The notes under the pieces: model-generated
Told to the model about the DNA's origin: nothing
Database searches by the model: none
Seen by the model: the letters and a program-made list of their open reading frames with translations, nothing else
Assembly (NCBI GenBank): GCA_017445845.1
Contig: JAFSRY010000057.1
Location: 1-49,910, forward strand
DNA length: 49,910 nt
Reading direction: 5' to 3'
Origin: Prevotella sp.
GTDB taxonomy: Bacteria > Bacteroidota > Bacteroidia > Bacteroidales > Bacteroidaceae
Translations under genes and position numbers: made by a program
In this document: positions 2-47,587 of the stretch, piece after piece
How positions within the stretch are numbered: the stretch's first letter is position 1
How the letters are laid out: every line of letters starts with the position of its first letter

Positions 2-346
2 GCCGACGAGACCACCGAGGGTCTGAAAGGCGTGTACGAAGAGACGGTCATCACCGACGGCCTCGACAAGATCTACTTCTGGGCTGCTGCCGACGGTGCG
101 TTCAGCAATGCCACGAGCAAACTGACCGTGCCTCCCACCCGCGCCTACCTGCAACTGACATCAGCCCCCGCTGCCGCTGGTGCCCGCCTGATGGTGAGCT
201 TCGACGGCGAGGCCACGGGCATAGCCACCATCAGCCGTGACGGCCAGACGGACATCCAGACCGTCTACGACCTGCAGGGCCGCCGCGTCAACAGTCCGGT
301 GCGGGGTGGCCTCTACATTGTGGGTGGAAAGAAGATTGTCTTTTGA
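2..346 (+). CDS. C-terminal end of an exported protein with a T9SS-like tail (5' truncated by window edge)
   Basis: The reading frame is open from the first bases of the window, so this is the last 114 codons of a longer gene; the visible GTG at 32 is not the true start. The end reads VYDLQGRRV, then a short spacer, GGLYIVGGKKIVF and the stop. This matches the short C-terminal sorting-like tail common on Prevotella surface and secreted proteins (type A T9SS-like; export route inferred). The preceding stretch has the alternating hydrophobic pattern of a beta-sandwich and no recognisable catalytic motif. A 52-residue peptide gene follows after 44 bases, as it does after three other tail-bearing genes in this window. 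What the protein does is unknown because its main domain lies outside the window. Confidence 0.8.
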   Translation, partial: ADETTEGLKGVYEETVITDGLDKIYFWAAADGAFSNATSKLTVPPTRAYLQLTSAPAAAGARLMVSFDGEATGIATISRDGQTDIQTVYDLQGRRVNSPVRGGLYIVGGKKIVF

Positions 347-390: not shown

Positions 391-549
391 ATGAAAAAGA
401 ATTATAAAGCTCCCATGATGACGGTGGTGAACCTGCGCCTGCAGCACCATATCCTCGTTGCCTCGGAGAACCTGAGCGGTGCGCGCAGCGTCAGCGAAGG
501 CACTGCCGGCGCTCGCGGTGATAACGGCGGTTGGGAAGACGAGGACTGA
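391..549 (+). CDS. Short peptide gene of the MKKxYxxP family (copy 1)
   Basis: This ATG-to-TGA frame encodes 52 residues. It begins MKKNYKAPMMTVVNLRLQ, has a hydrophobic I-L-V-A-S centre near residues 21-25, a Gly/Ser/Ala-rich variable part, and ends GGWEDED. There is no classical signal peptide. It is supported as a real gene by three relatives in the window (16657, 20516, and 46717 on the minus strand) that share the M-K/R-K start, Y-x-x-P, the central hydrophobic-hydrophobic-x-x-S and an acidic Trp-containing end. Each follows a gene that ends in a T9SS-like tail; here the gap is 44 bases. The function is unknown. Plausible roles are a secreted peptide, a processed precursor, or a partner of the upstream surface protein. 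Confidence 0.7.
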   Translation: MKKNYKAPMMTVVNLRLQHHILVASENLSGARSVSEGTAGARGDNGGWEDED

Positions 550-14596: not shown

Positions 14597-16606
14597 ATGA
14601 GTATGAAAAGATTTACACTCATCATCGTGGCTGCACTACTGACCACGCTATCGTTTGCACAGAAGCCTGCTGCAACATTGAACAAGATTGTTACCCCTCC
14701 CACTAAAGTATTGGCTGACGCTGTCCTTACAAGCCAGAACTCAACAAGCCGAGTGCTCAAGGCACCCAGGAAAGCAGAAGCACCTGCGGGCACAGCTAAG
14801 ACCTACATCAGATCAGGTTCCTACATTTCCAGTGATGGATATATCCATGGTCAATCTGGCTTCACCACTATTGTCTTCGGCGAAGAAAACAAGGTCTACT
14901 TCGAAAAGTTGATTTATTCATTAGACTTCGATGTATGGATTGAAGGTACGCTCAGCGAAGACGGCACAAAGATCACCGTACCCATGGGACAACAACTGGG
15001 AACCATACAATACGGCGATGTATTCCTGGGTATCGGCTATCCCTCCTCAGCCCAAACCATGGAAGGCAACCTGACCTTTACTGTCAGTGGAAACAAGATT
15101 ACGCTCGACACATATACCAATTATACTATTGGTGTCGTCAGCGGATTGTTCACATTCAACGGAAACCTCTACTTCACAGCCAATGCCGGCTTGAACTATG
15201 GTGACTATGCTACAGCCTTCGAACTCTTCGAAGAACCCGAGACCATCACCGTTCCCGACAACCTCGAAACAGAAGACATGCCTTTCACCGGCTCTGAGAA
15301 CGCATCTACCGACTATGCCACCACCGTAAAGGTAGGATGGGATGGCTCCGACGTGTATATCCAGGGCTTCAACAAGTTCCTGCCCGAAGCATGGATCAAG
15401 GGTACGCTGGGCGAAGACAACATCGTCACATTCCCCGTACAGTACATGGGTAAAGACGACACAACACCTTACTTCCTCACTGGTTACTCAAGTTCAGGCA
15501 CACTGCCCGGAGCGAAAATGGAATACTCTGCCGACGACAACACGTTCACGGGAAGCGGAACCATCAACCTCAACGGCAACAGTTCTTCTTGGTCTTCCAT
15601 CGTCTTCTATAACGGTGTCATCATCGGTCACGCTCCGGAACCCATCACAGTTCCTGATGGACTCGTAACAGAAAGCTATCCTATCAGTGCCACAGACAAC
15701 AGCAGTGCCAACTACAGCGGCACCGTTGAAGTTGGCATCGACGGCACTGACATCTACTTCAAGAACCTCCTGGCCAATGTACCCGACGCATGGGTGAAAG
15801 GTACCATTGCCGATGACGGCACCGTCACCATCCCCATCCAGTATGCAGGCAAAAACAGCGGCTATGGCATCGGAATGTATGCCGTAGGCTACGGCAACTC
15901 GACCTTCACTGACATCGTACTTCAATACCATGCCGAATACGACGTGTTTGTGGCACAAAACGTCATCGCAGCCAGCGCAAAGAAGAACTCATGGAGTTTC
16001 TACTTCGACGACGACATCCTGCAGAATGCCGTCATCGGTGTACCCCCTGTCAGTGTCACAGCCAATACTGCCGACGAGACCACTTACTATGCTACATTCT
16101 ATGATGCCAACTTCAACTATGTAGCCGATGCCAACACTACTGTCTACACTGCCAAAGTCGATGAAAGCGGAGAATGGATGAATCTGTCTGAGATAGCCAA
16201 TAAGGTTATTCCTGCAGGAACAGCCGTTATCCTGGAAGGCAAAGCCGCTACCATCACACTGAAAGGCAGCCGCGCTGCAGCCGAAGCTGTCGAGAACAAC
16301 GACCTCAAGGGTACTGCCGCTGACAAGGCTCCTGCTGAAGGCGTAACGACATACGTTCTTGCCAATGGTGACGCTGGCGTAGGCTTCTACCAGTTTGCAG
16401 GCGCAACACTCGCAGCAGGCAAGGCTTACATCGAAATCGCCGGTGACGCTGCCGCTAAGGTGCTGACATTCGGTGAGACAACAGCCATCAAGGGCGTTGC
16501 CGACGTGAAGGCTGACGATGCCGTCATCTATAACCTCGCCGGTCAGCGCGTGAACAATGCCCAGAAGGGTATCTTCATCCAGAACGGTAAGAAGGTCGTC
16601 TTCTAA
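14597..16606 (+). CDS. Modular exported surface protein with T9SS-like tail (paralogue A)
   Basis: The 669-residue protein begins with a signal peptide (MKRFTLIIVAALLTTLSFAQ, from an ATG at 14597 or 14603). It contains a repeated module of about 120 residues, at roughly 85-200, 215-340 and 350-480, with the signature DVYIQGF..LPEAWIKGTL and then QYMG. A module at about 493-640 (YYATFYDANFNYVADAN, IPAGTAVILEG, GVGFYQFAG) follows, and the protein ends VIYNLAGQRV...KGIFIQNGKKVVF. The tail suggests type IX export and cell-surface attachment (inference). No catalytic motif was seen; a binding or adhesin role is possible. A 52-residue peptide gene and a terminator follow. A paralogue with the same ends lies next to it at 17646. 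Confidence 0.85.
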   Translation: MSMKRFTLIIVAALLTTLSFAQKPAATLNKIVTPPTKVLADAVLTSQNSTSRVLKAPRKAEAPAGTAKTYIRSGSYISSDGYIHGQSGFTTIVFGEENKVYFEKLIYSLDFDVWIEGTLSEDGTKITVPMGQQLGTIQYGDVFLGIGYPSSAQTMEGNLTFTVSGNKITLDTYTNYTIGVVSGLFTFNGNLYFTANAGLNYGDYATAFELFEEPETITVPDNLETEDMPFTGSENASTDYATTVKVGWDGSDVYIQGFNKFLPEAWIKGTLGEDNIVTFPVQYMGKDDTTPYFLTGYSSSGTLPGAKMEYSADDNTFTGSGTINLNGNSSSWSSIVFYNGVIIGHAPEPITVPDGLVTESYPISATDNSSANYSGTVEVGIDGTDIYFKNLLANVPDAWVKGTIADDGTVTIPIQYAGKNSGYGIGMYAVGYGNSTFTDIVLQYHAEYDVFVAQNVIAASAKKNSWSFYFDDDILQNAVIGVPPVSVTANTADETTYYATFYDANFNYVADANTTVYTAKVDESGEWMNLSEIANKVIPAGTAVILEGKAATITLKGSRAAAEAVENNDLKGTAADKAPAEGVTTYVLANGDAGVGFYQFAGATLAAGKAYIEIAGDAAAKVLTFGETTAIKGVADVKADDAVIYNLAGQRVNNAQKGIFIQNGKKVVF

Positions 16607-17645: not shown

Positions 17646-20465
17646 ATGAGTATGAAAAGATTTACACTCTTTATTGTGGCTGCACTCATCGCCACCATCT
17701 CGTTCGCACAGAAGCCTGTGCTGACGGAAAAAAATCTTCCGACACCTTTCGCAATGACTAAAAATGTTGCGAAGCCTTCAACAGAATTCGGACAAACAGC
17801 TAAGGTAAACAACTTTTCCCCTGTCTTTGCCAACAAAGGAATGAGGAAAGCTCCTCGCAAGGCTTACGAAAACCGCGAAAAACTGTTCTCTGATGACTTT
17901 GAAAGTGGCACGCTTGACAATTGGACCGTCGTCCGCAACGGTGAAGGCACTGATGCAACAGACTGGAGAACTACCGTTTCAGCCAGTACTTTCAGTGGTT
18001 CGAGTATTCCAGCTCACAGCGGCGATTATGTTGCGATGAGTCGCAGCTGGGCTTCTACTGCTTATAGTGTTGACAACTGGCTCATCTCACCTCAGGTGAC
18101 TCTCGGTGGAGCAATGTCTTTCTGGGTGATGGACGACGGTCAATACCATGAGCATTATGATATTTATATTTCCACAACTGACACCGACCTTGGCTCCTTC
18201 ACCCTTCTTTACAGCCCGGGAAATGCATCAAGCACATGGTCAGAAGTCGCAGTCGACCTGTCTGCATTTGCCGGTGAGACAGGATACATTGCCATCCGCC
18301 ATCAGGATACCGACCAAGACTATCTTTTCATCGATGACTTCACTGTCTTCGGTGATGAAATCGAGTCTCCTGCTCCTGCCAACGTCCAAGTCGATGCACA
18401 AGACACAGATGCTACCTTCACTTGGGAAGGATGGAGCGACAGCTATACATTCCGCTACAGAACAACTGCATCTTCTGAGAAATATTTCTTTGAGGCTCTC
18501 ACTGGTGCAATACCTGAAGGCTGGACAACCATCGACAACGACGGTGATGGCAACAACTGGTATATCGCCGGCGGCACTCTGGCTTCTGCCAGCTATGGCA
18601 ACGGCGCCCTTACTCCGGATAACTGGCTGGTAACACCGCAGCTTGACCTGCAAGGAACCTTGAAAGTCAACCTGTGGGGTCAAGATCCCAACTGGGCAGA
18701 CGAACATTTCGCCATCTATCTTTCAACGACAGGAAATACTGTTGAAGACTTCACTACCGTGCTTCTGGCAGAAACAGTTGCAACAGGTGCCGTCACCGAA
18801 TATTCTGCTGACCTGAGCAGCTATGCAGGACAGAAAGGCTATATCGCCATCCGCCACTTCAACTGCACTGACATGTTCCGACTCAACGTTTCCGACTTCG
18901 GACTCTATGGCGCTGTTATACCTGCAGGTGATTGGATTTCAAAGAATACCACTGAGACTACTATCTTTATTGATGGTCTGACACCTGACACAAGCTATGA
19001 CTATCAGGTGATGGGAACCAAGAACAGCATTGACTCTGACTGGACTCCTGTTGCAACGTTTAAGACACGTACCGAACGACTCGAAGCCGTCAAACTCCCT
19101 GATGGTGTCACAGCTGAGACATGGGCCTTCACTGCCACAAGACAAACCGGATCAGTAACCGCATTCAACAATCCCAACGCCCAGCTTGCATTCGACGGCA
19201 ATGATGTCTACTTCTCTGGTTTCAACGACTATGTGCCCGCCGCATTCATCAAGGGTACCAAGAATGCTGACGGCTCGCTGAGCTTCCCCGCAAACCAGTA
19301 CCTGGGCACCGTCAGTGGAACAGAGTACTACTTCGAAGTATACAATGCAGACGCTCTTAACTTTGCTTTCGACGGAGAACTGACATACACATCTGACAAT
19401 TACTATTCTATCGGCACTGCACCCTACGAATTCAACTACAATGACTACTTCTCCGCCAACGCATCCATTTCACAGGAAGTCGACGAACTGGTAACTGTTC
19501 CCGCAGGAATTGAGACCGTCGTCTATACGATGAAGTACAAGTCATCAGCAACCTCGTCAAGCCGCGATGCCAAGACTTATGTAAACGTTGCCTTCGACGG
19601 AGCTGACGTCTACGTACAAGGTGTATGGAGCGGACTGCCCGATGCTTGGGTCAAGGGTAAGGTGACCGGAGACAAGATTACCTTCGCCAAGAAGCAGTAT
19701 CTGGGTTCCTACAGTACTCAATATCCGAATGTTTACTTTACTCCGTTCGATGCCAACGGCACAATTATCAACAACCTTGTGTGCGATTATGATGCAGAGT
19801 CGAAGTCGTTCGAGGCTACCGACAACTTCGCCATCACAATCAGCAAGACTGCTTTGACTTACTTCTCAAGAGTTTACGCTCCTCTCTTCAAGGAATTCAG
19901 TGCAAACGTAACCGCTAAGAGCGCCGGCAATCCTGGAGATCCTTACTTCGCAACATTCTACGATGCAGAAGAAGGCTATGTGGCTGATGCTAACACCAAG
20001 GTCTACACTGCAAAGGTGAGCGAGAGCGGCGAATGGGTCGACCTGGCAGAAGTGACCAACAAGACCATTCCGGCAGGTAATGCCGTCGTCCTCGAGTCGA
20101 ATGCTGAAAACATCCAACTGGCTGGTGTAATCGGTGCTACTGGTACGCTGTCGAACAACGACCTGAAGGGTGCTGCCGCTGACAAGGCTCCTGCTGAAGG
20201 CGTAACGACATACGTCCTTGCCAATGGTGACGCTGGCGTAGGCTTCTACCAGTTCGCAGGCGAAACGCTCGCAGCCGGCAAGGCTTACATCGAAATCGCC
20301 GGTGACGCTGCCGCTAAGGTGCTGACATTCGGCGAGACCACCGCTATCAATGGTGTTGCCGACGTGAAGGCCGACAAGGCTGTCATCTATAACCTCGCCG
20401 GTCAGCGTGTGAACAATGCCCAGAAGGGTGTCTTCATCCAGAACGGTAAGAAGGTCGTCTTCTAA
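17646..20465 (+). CDS. Modular exported surface protein with T9SS-like tail (paralogue B)
   Basis: The 939-residue protein has a signal peptide (MKRFTLFIVAALIATISFAQ) almost the same as that of the upstream paralogue. Two jelly-roll domains of the cleaved-adhesin/choice-of-anchor type follow at about 75-240 (DDFESGTLDNWTVV, DNWLISPQVTL, GYIAIRHQDT) and 270-420 (DNWLVTPQLDL, GYIAIRHFNC). Between and after them are fibronectin-like stretches (TFTWEGWSDSYTFRYR). Two copies of the module with DVYFSGF or DVYVQGV, then AWVKG, lie at about 480-750. The C-terminal 170 residues and the final tail VIYNLAGQRV...NGKKVVF are nearly identical to paralogue A. A surface adhesin or glycan-binding role is plausible but not shown. 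Peptide copy 3 and a terminator follow. Confidence 0.85.
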   Translation: MSMKRFTLFIVAALIATISFAQKPVLTEKNLPTPFAMTKNVAKPSTEFGQTAKVNNFSPVFANKGMRKAPRKAYENREKLFSDDFESGTLDNWTVVRNGEGTDATDWRTTVSASTFSGSSIPAHSGDYVAMSRSWASTAYSVDNWLISPQVTLGGAMSFWVMDDGQYHEHYDIYISTTDTDLGSFTLLYSPGNASSTWSEVAVDLSAFAGETGYIAIRHQDTDQDYLFIDDFTVFGDEIESPAPANVQVDAQDTDATFTWEGWSDSYTFRYRTTASSEKYFFEALTGAIPEGWTTIDNDGDGNNWYIAGGTLASASYGNGALTPDNWLVTPQLDLQGTLKVNLWGQDPNWADEHFAIYLSTTGNTVEDFTTVLLAETVATGAVTEYSADLSSYAGQKGYIAIRHFNCTDMFRLNVSDFGLYGAVIPAGDWISKNTTETTIFIDGLTPDTSYDYQVMGTKNSIDSDWTPVATFKTRTERLEAVKLPDGVTAETWAFTATRQTGSVTAFNNPNAQLAFDGNDVYFSGFNDYVPAAFIKGTKNADGSLSFPANQYLGTVSGTEYYFEVYNADALNFAFDGELTYTSDNYYSIGTAPYEFNYNDYFSANASISQEVDELVTVPAGIETVVYTMKYKSSATSSSRDAKTYVNVAFDGADVYVQGVWSGLPDAWVKGKVTGDKITFAKKQYLGSYSTQYPNVYFTPFDANGTIINNLVCDYDAESKSFEATDNFAITISKTALTYFSRVYAPLFKEFSANVTAKSAGNPGDPYFATFYDAEEGYVADANTKVYTAKVSESGEWVDLAEVTNKTIPAGNAVVLESNAENIQLAGVIGATGTLSNNDLKGAAADKAPAEGVTTYVLANGDAGVGFYQFAGETLAAGKAYIEIAGDAAAKVLTFGETTAINGVADVKADKAVIYNLAGQRVNNAQKGVFIQNGKKVVF

Positions 20466-39494: not shown

Positions 39495-40622
39495 CTACTG
39501 TAAATACTTCGAGAAGAAGTCCGAAAGGGTGTCCCAAGGAATCAGGTTCTTCGGCTCGCCCTTCCCCATCGGCTCGGTGAACCCGCCGTCGTAGAGGTCG
39601 CAGTGCGTAGCTCCCGGAATGATGAGCAGCTGTTTGTTCTCAGGCACAGGGTTGGGCTTGGCTCCACCCTCTACCATATACCGGTAGGCGTCTTCGCCGA
39701 AATAGCGTGAATGGGCTTTCTCGCCGTGCATGACGAGTACGGCCGAACGGATTTCGTTGGTATAGTGGAGGAAGCGGGCATTGGCGTAGGCCTGTGTGCC
39801 GATGGTGCGCCATCCGTCGTTGGAGTTGCCGCTGCGCTCGTGGTAGCCGCGCGGAGTCTTATAGTAGTCGTAGTAGTCTTTCACGAACTGTGGAGCCTCT
39901 TCGGGCAGCGGGTCTACGACGCCGCCTGCCATCTTTGCGGGGTCCTCCAGTCGCTGCCGGCTCAGGGCTTCGCGGGCAGCATGGCGGTCGGCTTCGTTGT
40001 CGTTGGCATCATAGTATCCGTTGCCGCTGATGCGTGTCATGTCGTACATGGTCGATGCCACCGTGGCTTTGATGCGCGTGTCGGCAGCGGCAGCGTTCAG
40101 GGCAATGCCGCCCCAGCCGCAGATGCCGATGATACCGACCTTTTCGGCATCGACAAAAGAGAGTTTCGACAGGTAGTCGACGGCAGCCATGAAGTCCTCG
40201 GTGTTGATGTCGGGCGAAGCCGTCCGGCGCGGTTCACCGCTGCTCTCGCCGGTGAACGAGGGGTCGAAGGCCAGGGCCACAAAGCCGCGTTCGGCCATCC
40301 GCATGGCATAGAGTCCGCTCGACTGTTCCTTCGTAGCACCGAACGGACCGCTGACGGCGATGGCCGGATAGAGGTCCTGGGGTGCTGCTGCCTCAACGTC
40401 TAAGTCCTTCGGCGTATAGAGGTCGGCAGCGAGGGTCAGCCCAAACTGTGTTTCAAACGTCACCTTGCGGTGGTTCACATTCTCGCTCAGGGGGAACACT
40501 TTGTCCCACTCCTGTGTCAGTTGCAGTGTTGTCATATCGTCATTACTTTTGTTGATTTCTTTCTGTTGACATGCCGTCAGCACTCCCACTGCGAGCATGG
40601 CTGTTAATAATACCTTTTTCAT
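39495..40622 (-). CDS. Alpha/beta hydrolase lipoprotein
   Basis: The 375-residue protein has a lipoprotein signal (MKKVLLTAMLAVGVLTAC, lipid Cys at 18) and an alpha/beta-hydrolase domain. The nucleophile elbow reads GIIGICGWGGIAL, with Cys where Ser is usual, as in dienelactone-hydrolase-like members. The catalytic His lies in IPGATHCDLYDGG near the end. Substrate unknown; esterase or peptidase-like roles in the periplasm are possible. Its start overlaps the stop of the cyclophilin-like gene by four bases (ATGA), so the two are coupled. Confidence 0.82.
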   Translation of the reverse strand: MKKVLLTAMLAVGVLTACQQKEINKSNDDMTTLQLTQEWDKVFPLSENVNHRKVTFETQFGLTLAADLYTPKDLDVEAAAPQDLYPAIAVSGPFGATKEQSSGLYAMRMAERGFVALAFDPSFTGESSGEPRRTASPDINTEDFMAAVDYLSKLSFVDAEKVGIIGICGWGGIALNAAAADTRIKATVASTMYDMTRISGNGYYDANDNEADRHAAREALSRQRLEDPAKMAGGVVDPLPEEAPQFVKDYYDYYKTPRGYHERSGNSNDGWRTIGTQAYANARFLHYTNEIRSAVLVMHGEKAHSRYFGEDAYRYMVEGGAKPNPVPENKQLLIIPGATHCDLYDGGFTEPMGKGEPKNLIPWDTLSDFFSKYLQ

Positions 40623-41218
40623 TTGATGATTTTCTTTCCGTTTTCAATATATATGCCTTTCGGCAGAGTTGTGGCTTTCACGCCGTTGAGCGCCACCATG
40701 CCTTTGGATGCGGTTTCTGCCTTCGGGGCGTTGACCGCCGAAGGGTCCTCGACGGACAGCGTCACCTTCACCCGTCCCTTGCCAGCCTGCAGGAAGTCCT
40801 TCAGCTGTTCCAGTGAGCTGTATTCAATGCGTCCCAGGCGAGTGTAGCTCCAGCTGTTGCTGCCATAGAAAAGCACGATTTGGTTTCCGCTGTAGAGAAT
40901 GATGTCGCCTGCCACCGTCTTCAGCTGCTGGTTGCTCGTCGTCAGCGAGCGTCCCAAGGGGCCCACTTTCTCAAATCCGCCGTAGTCGTCGGCTTCGTAG
41001 GTGATGGGGCTTTCCGCAAGTGCCGCCAGGAGTTCCTCGGTGGCCTTGTTGACGACCAGTGTTGCCGGCAGCGTCTGGTTGCCGATGGTCAGATAGAGCT
41101 TTGTTCCTTGCTCTTTTTGGATTGTTGGTTGTGCCATAGTGTCGTCGCTGGTGCATGACATCACGAGCAGGGCTGCTGCCATGATGAGGATGCGATTGAT
41201 GAAGAGTCGTTGGACCAT
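40619..41218 (-). CDS. Cyclophilin-like fold lipoprotein with T9SS-like tail
   Basis: I take the ATG at 41218 (MVQRLFINRILIMAAALLVM, then SC) as the start; 41227 is also possible. It has a lipobox (LVMSC). The central 115 residues match the small cyclophilin-like domain (KLYLTIGNQTLPATLVVN, then FEKVGPLGRSLT, ILYSGNQIVLFYGSNSWSY). The C-terminus VALNGVKATTLPKGIYIENGKKIIK resembles the sorting-like tail of the other exported proteins here but with a weakened first half. It is coupled to the alpha/beta hydrolase downstream and lies 15 bases after the DHFR-like gene. The function is unknown; many such genes neighbour flavin reductases or hydrolases. Confidence 0.75.
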   Translation of the reverse strand: MVQRLFINRILIMAAALLVMSCTSDDTMAQPTIQKEQGTKLYLTIGNQTLPATLVVNKATEELLAALAESPITYEADDYGGFEKVGPLGRSLTTSNQQLKTVAGDIILYSGNQIVLFYGSNSWSYTRLGRIEYSSLEQLKDFLQAGKGRVKVTLSVEDPSAVNAPKAETASKGMVALNGVKATTLPKGIYIENGKKIIK

Positions 41219-41233
41219 AAAAAACAATATATC

Positions 41234-45764: not shown

Positions 45765-46325
45765 TCACAACTGTATCTTGGCAGAAAACGGACCGACTTT
45801 GACAATGTAGACGCCCGTGCCTAATGTTGCACGGCTCAAGAGCACTTCGCCGCCACGGATGGAAGGCGTAGGAAGGCTGCGACCATCGAGCGAATACACT
45901 CGGAGAAGGACACCATCGGGAATGCCACGCAGCATCACGCCCCCGTCCTGCAGAACACAAGAGAAGCCAGCTGACTCCACAACAGGCAGGACTCCGGTAG
46001 CCTCGCCGAACGCCAACTCGGCAATGTCGGATATTTCGAACACCACATCATCGGCAGTATCTGACTTCACCTTCAGCTTACCATCATCCGAAACCGTCAC
46101 AACGGGGTGGGCTTCGAAAAGAATGGCTGTCGTCGCCCCGCCCTTCGTCCTCACCAGCAGGCCTTCGCCTCCTTCGGCTACCGTGAGGAAGCTGATTTTC
46201 TTCAGGTCGGCAACACGCAGCCGTGTTGCTGTCCCGTCAGTATTCTGAATGCTCATGACTTTCTCTTGCGCCTGAGCCGACAGAACTCCGATAAAGAGTG
46301 TCGCTAATAAAAGTATCTTTCTCAT
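45765..46325 (-). CDS. Exported protein with T9SS-like tail, unknown function
   Basis: The 186-residue protein has a signal peptide (MRKILLLATLFIGVLSAQAQ). It then has two beta-repeat stretches: MSIQNTDGTATRLRVADLKK followed by ISFLT, and VVFEISDIAELAFGE. The end reads RVYSLDGRSL...GTGVYIVKVGPFSAKIQL, a good type A T9SS-like tail. The start resembles the N-terminal part of the GxGYxYP protein that follows after 25 bases. Unlike other tail-bearing genes here it is not followed by a short peptide gene. Its own promoter lies upstream. Confidence 0.78.
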   Translation of the reverse strand: MRKILLLATLFIGVLSAQAQEKVMSIQNTDGTATRLRVADLKKISFLTVAEGGEGLLVRTKGGATTAILFEAHPVVTVSDDGKLKVKSDTADDVVFEISDIAELAFGEATGVLPVVESAGFSCVLQDGGVMLRGIPDGVLLRVYSLDGRSLPTPSIRGGEVLLSRATLGTGVYIVKVGPFSAKIQL

Positions 46326-46729: not shown

Positions 46730-46960
46730 TTATTTAATGATTATTTTATTTCCATTCTTAATATATATACCTTTGGTGGAGGGCTGGCCTGTGAGGCGTC
46801 GTCCGTCGAGGGTGAACCAAGCCTCACCCCTCAGCCCCTCTCCAAAGGACGAGGGGGAGTAGATACTATCGAAGTTCAGCAATGTTGATGTCAGCGCCGA
46901 ACGTGACGGCCTGGCTCGTTGTGTTACTGCTGTATGCAGGTCACTCTCGCTATTAACCGT
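46730..46960 (-). pseudogene. C-terminal relic of an exported tail-bearing gene
   Basis: Only the end survives: GEAWFTLDGRRLTG..STKGIYIKNGNKIIIK, then TAA at 46730-46732. Upstream the frame runs through SPSSFGEGLRG, encoded by a C/G-rich palindromic element, to ARPSRSALTSTLLNFDS; a second frame nearby reads SQAVTFGADINIAEL and stops at a TAG. The match to neighbouring genes ends near 46950, where the AT-rich element begins, so the main domain was lost when that DNA arrived or was deleted. The short peptide gene follows 12 bases after the stop. Confidence 0.75.
46822..46858. repeat. C/G-rich palindromic element inside the relic gene (copy 3)
   Basis: CCCCTCAGCCCCTCTCCAAA and GGACGAGGGGGAG form a near-palindrome of the same style as those at 35818 and 37584. 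Here it lies in frame just before the tail module (encoding SPSSFGEGLRG). Confidence 0.6.
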
Positions 46961-47587
46961 AGTCTGTGCCCATGCGCCCGTGTTTCGTCTGTTGGTGACA
47001 GGCAGAACACAGACAGGCAGATTTCTGATTTGTCAGAATATGCAGCGTTTCAGAAACTACAGATTTCTAAGATATTTGAGGAAAAGATTTCTGGAGCAAA
47101 GAAGAATGTGGAGAGACCTGTATTATTACAGGCTATAGACTATAGCAAACAAAATGGTGTTTCTATCCTTTTGGTTAGTGAACTTTCCAGACTTGGGAGA
47201 AATGCGTTTGAAGTGTTGGCTACAGTTAAAGACCTCATAGATAGTGGCATTAACCTCTATATGCAGAAAGAACAACTTACTTTGTTGGATGCAGAGGGAA
47301 AACCCACAATGTTTGCACCCATTATGATAGCCACTTTGTCAACGTGTGCCCAATTAGAGCGTGAAAATATAAAGTTCCGCTTAAATAGTGGTCGAAAGCT
47401 ATACATTGAGCGTGGTGGGAAACTTGGCCGTAAGGTTGGAAGTGTAAAGACCATTGAACAGAAGAAAGAACAGTACAAAGACATTATTAGCTACCTTAAA
47501 CGTGGCTATTCCATCCGTAACGTGGCTAAACTCACTAATAAGGGAATAAGCACAGTACAACGAATAAAAGCGGACTTCAATCTCTAA
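46934..47587 (+). CDS. Serine recombinase (resolvase/invertase), 5' end disturbed
   Basis: The catalytic domain is clear: ARVSSVGDRQNTDRQISDLS with the active-site Ser, VSELSRLGRNAFEVLATVKD, the arm region, and a C-terminal helix-turn-helix (RGYSIRNVAKLTNKGISTVQ). The product has about 205 residues from here. The residues before ARVSS (MQVTLAINRSLCPC) do not match the usual start of such proteins and seem to be flanking DNA fused on, so the first 8-10 residues are replaced. Recombinases of this type move or invert DNA. It lies at the left edge of an AT-rich element and may be inactive. Confidence 0.8.
   Translation: MQVTLAINRSLCPCARVSSVGDRQNTDRQISDLSEYAAFQKLQISKIFEEKISGAKKNVERPVLLQAIDYSKQNGVSILLVSELSRLGRNAFEVLATVKDLIDSGINLYMQKEQLTLLDAEGKPTMFAPIMIATLSTCAQLERENIKFRLNSGRKLYIERGGKLGRKVGSVKTIEQKKEQYKDIISYLKRGYSIRNVAKLTNKGISTVQRIKADFNL

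Follow-up and report, generated by a model that had tools for sequence, protein, structure and literature searches.

A contig from a Prevotella sp. carries four genes for peptides of 52 to 57 amino acids, each placed directly behind a reading frame that ends in a tail resembling those of type IX secretion (T9SS) cargo, and the locus raises the question of what such peptides are and why they keep this company. The stretch of DNA analyzed here, called the window below, is 49,910 nucleotides long and represents a whole contig of a 2.46-Mb genome (G000) that is 75.5% complete.

Four Peptide Genes behind Tail-Bearing Frames

The first-pass annotation had described peptides that begin with M-(K/R)-K-(x)-x-Y-x-x-P, have a Ser after a central hydrophobic pair, and end in an acidic stretch with Trp, and had placed every peptide shortly beyond the stop of a frame with a YxLxGxRV...GKK tail. 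This description was borne out: the four short open reading frames are present (Table 1), the pattern is seen in all of them, the tail frames precede them at the distances listed, and the two further tail genes at 40619 and 45765 have no peptide downstream. None of the four peptides matched a Pfam family at E ≤ 1 and none reached an NCBIfam cut-off, and a sub-threshold match of the first 12 residues of P0001 to lasso_cyano (E = 0.24) can be seen as a hint in hindsight. Most relatives of the tail domain belong to rumen and gut assemblies of Prevotella, Prevotellaceae, and Bacteroidaceae.

Table 1. Peptide genes and tail-bearing frames of the window
Feature	Position	Strand	Remarks
LPP-like precursor peptide 1, 52 aa	391..549	+	leader MKKNYKAP...HILVAS, acidic Trp end; start 44 bases past tail stop
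Tail-bearing gene, 3' end, cut by window start (...VYDLQGRRVNSPVRGGLYIVGGKKIVF)	2..346	+	precedes peptide 1
LPP-like precursor peptide 2, 52 aa	16657..16815	+	start 50 bases past tail stop
Tail-bearing secreted protein directly ahead of peptide 2	14597..16606	+	no Pfam family
LPP-like precursor peptide 3, 52 aa	20516..20674	+	81% identity with peptide 2; start 50 bases past tail stop
Tail-bearing secreted protein directly ahead of peptide 3	17646..20465	+	Pfam Cleaved_Adhesin
LPP-like precursor peptide 4, 57 aa	46544..46717	-	start 12 bases past tail stop
100-codon open frame ending in tail, ahead of peptide 4	46730..47032	-	adjoins resolvase gene
Tail-bearing gene without peptide	40619..41227	-	Cyclophil_like2 domain
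Tail-bearing gene without peptide	45765..46325	-	

The frame ahead of peptide 4 is probably the remnant of a truncated cargo gene, since it is so short and lies beside a resolvase gene. The latter, a serine-recombinase gene (PF00239 Resolvase) on the plus strand at 46919-47587, suggests that the rest of the cargo gene was removed by an insertion. Inside the remnant, a G-rich stretch (CTTTGGAGAGGGGCTGAGGGGTGAGG, 46822-46847, minus strand) resembles part of a small repeat element, and no second copy was found in the window at up to three mismatches. The two secreted proteins ahead of peptides 2 and 3 have a long near-alike C-terminal region and share the tail and the following peptide, apparently through duplication of the whole 3' module.

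Linkage of Peptides and Tails across Genomes

The annotation had judged the tail link too regular for chance. Using a profile built from seven own-genome peptides, we found 23 matches in the own genome at E ≤ 10, one of which (L027) was judged a chance match and dropped. Twenty of the 22 remaining peptides stand directly behind a tail gene, 15 as recognized by a tail regular expression and five by eye, and the two tail-less cases lie 93 bases from a contig end (L018) and ahead of a lipoprotein gene (L023/L156). For other genomes, we picked by hand 20 regions from the profile matches, with the upstream side unseen, and scored the preceding gene with an HMM of the tail. A tail gene lies 5 to 145 bases upstream of 19 of the 21 peptides, in comparison with 2 of 29 control ORFs, of at least 150 aa, that these loci contain. 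Of the two peptides without such a gene, one (L180) stands behind a divergent tail recognized by eye. The link goes far beyond chance and is stronger than first described, which upholds the earlier judgment in the own genome as well as elsewhere.

Loci selected in other ways gave further counts. Among the best-scoring loci, a tail precedes 44 of 58 peptides (63 of 84 if some places are counted more than once) and 6 of 43 control ORFs of the same minimum length, and in tail-selected loci a tail precedes 3 of 96 such ORFs. Another 20 regions were chosen mainly because no tail had been seen upstream or because their genome gave no match to SprA, and three of them (L155, L164, and L165) are contig ends; here a tail lies upstream of 3 of 23 peptides. 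Seen from the side of the tails, 19 of the 35 loci that we selected with a tail-domain query hold a peptide, in all 19 directly behind the tail; among tail genes with room downstream, a peptide comes next in only 18 of 35, and it is thus not required by every cargo.

We also observed a second type of C-terminal tail, ending like NGxxYNxxGQxxK and followed by a peptide (L064, L104, L198, L206, and L211), which is apparently a permutation of the usual one.

Coding Selection and Leader Pattern

Among 20 peptide pairs with at least 60% identity, 18 provided a usable dN/dS, and two were left out for lack of a usable dS. The ratio was 0.06 to 0.36 in 14 of the 18 pairs and 0.50 to 0.84 in the four least diverged ones (dS ≤ 0.13), which include the window's own pair 16657/20516 at 0.76. 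Most of the compared pairs thus evolve as protein, the pattern by which the first-pass annotation had proposed to judge the frames. The rear of the peptide is mostly kept between close relatives and differs among paralogues, and the combination of a conserved front and a variable rear fits a processed precursor, as had been suggested.

The leader pattern was summarized over 154 distinct peptides after excluding matches with E > 1e-4 and lengths outside 35 to 90 aa. YxxP is found near the start of 153, the one peptide without the pattern being left out of the grammar count, and the resulting 100% at Tyr and Pro is partly by construction because the search profile itself weights these residues. 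Counting from the Tyr, a hydrophobic residue (ILMVF) is found at Y+5 in 69%, at Y+10 in 93%, and at Y+16 in 99% of the peptides. A LLxxS-type motif begins at Y+15 or Y+16 in 136 of 153; two residues before its Ser, one of A, T, C, or V was found in 109 of 140 cases; and a Trp near the C-terminus is conserved in 130 of 154. Some members finish the front with LLAGS, and a conserved double glycine was not seen at the end of the front in this set. It was this front, with MKK-x-Y-x-x-P, a hydrophobic-rich stretch, and LLxxS, that suggested a substrate of an RRE.

For the peptide profiles, L023 was dropped from the own-paralogue profile (A2) and L023, L030, L032, L092 (an in-frame fusion, >80 aa), and duplicates from a further profile (A3). 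In L092 (genome G487) and L191 (G245), the peptide frame continues in frame into a longer protein, before an apparent signal sequence.

A Candidate Maturation Cassette

As the first-pass annotation noted, the peptide genes of the window have no modification enzyme close by; the enzymes nevertheless seem to be supplied in trans, by a cassette at another place in the genome. In peptide-rich genomes, this cassette comprises a HprK-like kinase, an S24/S26-type (SpI-type) peptidase, and a PqqD/RRE protein, to which some loci add an ABC exporter and a NTP_transf_5 nucleotidyltransferase. PqqD (PF05402) passes the cut-off in all but one of 12 peptide-rich genomes, and it is also present, with other neighbors, in two of four peptide-negative comparison genomes. 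Ten of the 11 PqqD-positive rich genomes have kinase, peptidase, and PqqD in one locus; the remaining one, G245, has peptidase and PqqD only, and no kinase was found beside its RRE. Nucleotidyltransferase and exporter are both present in L234, L235, and, with a weak match for the former, L262, while the other loci have one or neither adjacent. A RpoD-like ORF was seen by eye near the cassette in 5 of 15 loci, and no precursor peptide lies inside the cassette loci L228 to L242. The stretches read in G317, G339, and G443 showed peptidase and ABC genes only, with neither RRE nor kinase, and the searches for PqqD and the peptidase did not find the cassette in the window's own genome at its 75.5% completeness.

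Compared with solved sequences, the RRE profile gave seven matches at E ≤ 10, including TfuB1 (E = 1.7e-5), PbaB1 (7.8e-4), TbiB1 (0.13), and LppB (0.29), whose solved structures all include the leader. TfuB1 and PbaB1 alone fall under 0.01, and the sequence match to LppB is weaker than that to TfuB1. The peptidase motifs GxSMxPF, xHR, and GD(G)N are each present in 27 of 28 distinct frames and fit the SpI-type leader peptidase with Ser-His-Asp known from the LPP system described below. The best NCBIfam match of the peptidases L231 and L243 is TIGR02228, signal peptidase I (E = 1.9e-5 and 5.6e-8), below its cut-off, and of three peptidases compared with Pfam, L243 passes Peptidase_S24, L231 falls below the cut-off, and L237 has no match. 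In the kinase, His and P-loop stand in the same register as in lasso-precursor kinases, with the full GxxGxGK[ST] in 18 and the DD motif in 20 of 25 distinct frames, although none of its database matches reaches a curated Pfam or NCBIfam cut-off; row L240 (not a kinase) was removed from the kinase alignment (A4) before the models used to read the cassette loci were built. The cassette kinase and PqqD also match the HPr-rel-A system (NCBIfam TIGR04352 / TIGR04353) weakly, in all cases below the curated cut-offs.

Co-occurrence and Distance of Peptide and Peptidase

To follow the cassette across genomes, we used a peptidase profile (A5) with rows from 11 genomes, of which six are in a family sample of 201 genomes and three (G055, G111, and G245) in an order sample of 247. 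By A2, 117 genomes of the family sample are peptide-positive and 84 negative. The peptidase profile matches 163 of the 201, consisting of 110 of 117 peptide-positive genomes and 53 of 84 others (Fisher P = 3.7e-8), and the figures are 78 of 79 and 31 of 52 among genomes at least 90% complete; without the six profile-source genomes, 104 of 111 peptide-positive genomes have it (P = 1e-7), with the caveat that these P values overstate independence because the genomes are related. The peptidase is far from specific, as its presence in so many A2-negative genomes shows. The seven peptide-positive genomes in which it was not matched are G000 (75.5% complete), G347 (87%), G370 (94%), G442 (86%), G473 (70%), G489 (81%), and G501 (69%).

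In the order sample, the peptide was detected in five genomes by A2 and in seven by A3, the peptidase in 33, and both in six. The peptidase is thus present in 6 of 7 peptide-positive genomes and in 27 of 240 others (P = 2e-5), or in 3 of 4 and 27 of 240 without the three profile-source genomes (P = 0.006). The six genomes with both span five other families, and their cassettes consist of kinase, peptidase, and RRE in five cases and of peptidase and RRE in G245. In G085, G178, and G211, which are not profile sources, kinase, peptidase, RRE, and ABC genes stand together.

The distance between peptide and peptidase is 3.8 kb in G317, 8.7 kb in G339, 10.2 kb in G443, and 9.1 kb in G178, and the two are on different contigs in G314, G337, and G456. 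The peptide loci of G317, G339, and G443 adjoin Poly_export (polysaccharide-export) or Wzc-like genes. The number of peptide-profile matches per genome reaches 23 to 25 in G000, 24 in G111, 23 in G280, and 20 in G301.

Peptides beside Lipoprotein Genes

The own genome has a full SprA, and in the family sample SprA was found in 109 of 117 peptide-positive genomes versus 46 of 84 others (P = 1.5e-10). The search gave no SprA match in eight peptide-positive genomes (G317, G339, G443, G456, G337, G314, G310, and G434), all eight of which have the cassette peptidase. In G314 and G434, the absence may reflect search misses because other members of their genera have SprA; the genera g178 and g185, which contain five of the eight, have no genome among the SprA-positive ones. 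We read the peptide loci of six of these genomes. In five, G317, G339, G443, G456, and G337 (L149 to L153), the peptide precedes a lipoprotein gene, and in the sixth, G314, the peptides follow tails (L084 and L154). The peptide-before-lipoprotein order was also seen in L156, L158, L160, and L161, and all six G055 peptides read stand 12 to 28 bases upstream of a lipoprotein gene. These genes were assigned as lipoproteins by eye; among seven scanned, there was one Mfa_like_1 and one LRR_5, and the remaining ones may be fimbrillin-like.

The peptides are thus linked to surface-protein genes more broadly than to type IX secretion. The association with the T9SS-like tail that had been claimed for the window stands, but it is not a link to type IX secretion as such, given the 8 of 117 genomes without a SprA match and the lipoprotein neighbors. 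A role in type IX secretion only was rejected on the cross-table of peptide and SprA given above.

Two other features were seen beside orphan peptides. The neighbors of those in L150 to L153, L166, and L167 end, as the peptides do, in Trp or Trp-Asp/Lys (GGNVWD, NSWDK, and VSVW), and in two genomes an orphan peptide is accompanied by a protein of 717 to 725 aa that has no Pfam match (L166:4484-6637 and L167:1659-3836).

The Nearest Known System and Other Readings

The nearest system is found in Bacillota, where the genes LppA/K/B/S/N/D encode the linear polyphosphorylated peptides (LPPs) and their enzymes (Popov et al. 2026, PMC13381572). According to that report, the core genes are those for an SpI peptidase, an RRE, a HprK-like kinase, an NTP transferase, and a MsbA-like exporter; the precursors have the motif YxxPxVLxHQxIxFETxxS, with cleavage following T-1; the products were seen with one to four phosphates, Ser3 being the site; and the LPPs are stated to be restricted to Bacillota and patchy, with one to three precursors inside a cluster that often co-localizes with capsule loci. 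The Bacteroidales cassette has the same gene set, though NTP_transf_5 and ABC genes often lie apart, and its precursors similarly combine a YxxP front with a variable rear, carrying LLxxS in place of FETxxS and, because of where LLxxS begins, the Ser at Y+19/20 instead of Y+18. The adjacency of the G317-type peptide locus to polysaccharide-export genes likewise recalls the capsule loci. The systems differ in that ours is found in Bacteroidales, in 117 of the 201 sampled genomes of one family, whereas LPPs are patchy in Bacillota; in that its precursors are scattered beside surface-protein genes and not gathered in the cluster; and in the conserved Trp near the C-terminus. No Bacteroidales LPP was evident among the titles and abstract openings listed in searches of one open literature collection, and the main text of PMC13381572 contains no word beginning with "bacteroid". 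What is new here is an LPP-like gene set in Bacteroidales whose many scattered precursors are tied to surface-protein genes.

Four other readings were weighed against this one. If the peptide were a cytosolic accessory of type IX secretion, for instance a small protein that chaperones or regulates tail-bearing cargo, comparable to PorP/SprF, the position of most members directly behind tail genes and the co-occurrence with SprA would follow, and in type B cargo, too, gene and partner gene usually form a cluster (PMC10202324). The partner here, however, is a peptide of about 50 residues without an apparent signal sequence, is also found in the eight genomes without a SprA match, and precedes lipoprotein genes in five of these and at every G055 peptide read; as an accessory function would also leave the YxxP leader and the cassette without a reason, we consider it improbable. 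A different possibility is that peptide and cassette are old lineage markers that co-occur through shared ancestry, the peptide having some other protein-level role. The genomes are related, the own genome has peptides with no cassette detected, the peptidase is common in A2-negative genomes, and the association outside the family is modest without the profile-source genomes; against this, six genomes from five other families again have both peptide and cassette, peptide and peptidase lie within about 10 kb in four genomes, and the leader grammar matches that of RRE substrates, which makes mere ancestry an unlikely explanation.

The remaining two readings keep the idea of a leader and change the enzymes. 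The LLAGS ending of some fronts would suit a leader-bearing bacteriocin or pheromone that depends on a C39 (PCAT) transporter for cleavage and export, and in RiPP clusters of Bacteroidales, PCATs are often found with GG-motif precursors (PMC10352776). Yet the front has no conserved double glycine at its end, a scan of three cassette ABC proteins gave no match to a C39 domain, and C39 was found in 3 of 12 peptide-rich versus 3 of 4 peptide-negative genomes; on the last count, C39 export was rejected, and we regard this reading as very improbable. The YxxP leader, PqqD RRE, HprK-like kinase, and nucleotidyltransferase are known from clusters of phosphorylated lasso peptides (paeninodin, pseudomycoidin, and Bsf), which share with our system a YxxP/WxxP leader, these three proteins, and an ABC exporter (PMC8498205, PMC10368454). 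That the peptides are lasso precursors matured in trans is nevertheless hardly credible: the leader peptidase family PF13471 (B2) was found in none of 20 genomes, which contradicts the B2 route, and an SpI-type peptidase takes its place.

A Proposed Pathway

The reading that we prefer, and consider probable, is that LPP-type RiPPs, linear and phosphorylated, are made from these peptides, with one cassette serving many scattered precursors. The first approximately 21 residues would be a leader, of which the PqqD-type RRE would bind the Tyr, the Pro, and the hydrophobic residue two after the Pro. The HprK-like kinase would phosphorylate the Ser of LLxxS, a site suggested by analogy with LPP, and the signal-peptidase-I-like serine peptidase would cut beside this motif, either between LL and xxS, as the analogy predicts, or after AxS. 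A cut after AxS would suit the signal-peptidase rule, given the A, T, C, or V seen two residues before the Ser in most cases. The nucleotidyltransferase may elaborate the phosphate, and the ABC exporter would release an acidic peptide of about 30 to 40 residues, mostly with a Trp-acidic end. With each precursor co-encoded with a surface-protein gene, every surface protein would have a distinct peptide. A role in the cell envelope is suggested by the neighboring genes, and our guess is that the product either forms part of the envelope or matrix or serves as a signal that tells which surface protein is being made.

A broader and more speculative version, which we offer tentatively and would not expect to hold in full, is a genome-wide labeling with peptides: one LPP-type cassette would mature up to about 25 phosphopeptides, each matched to one surface protein, be it an adhesin or an enzyme. 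Either released or surface-bound, the phosphopeptide could then serve as a signal, form part of the envelope or capsule, or act as a partner of its protein. The preferred reading provides a testable biosynthetic pathway for a very numerous and unnamed class of small proteins of gut and rumen bacteria. If it is true, linear polyphosphorylated RiPPs reach outside Bacillota, in a design where one enzyme set and many scattered precursors are tied to surface-protein genes, and the cause of the tail link becomes a question for experiment.

In genomes of other families where A3 found no peptide, kinase and peptidase genes occur together at L247, L249, L250, and L251, the first three additionally with an RRE and a weak NTP-transferase match, and these cassette loci are a place to seek other types of precursor.
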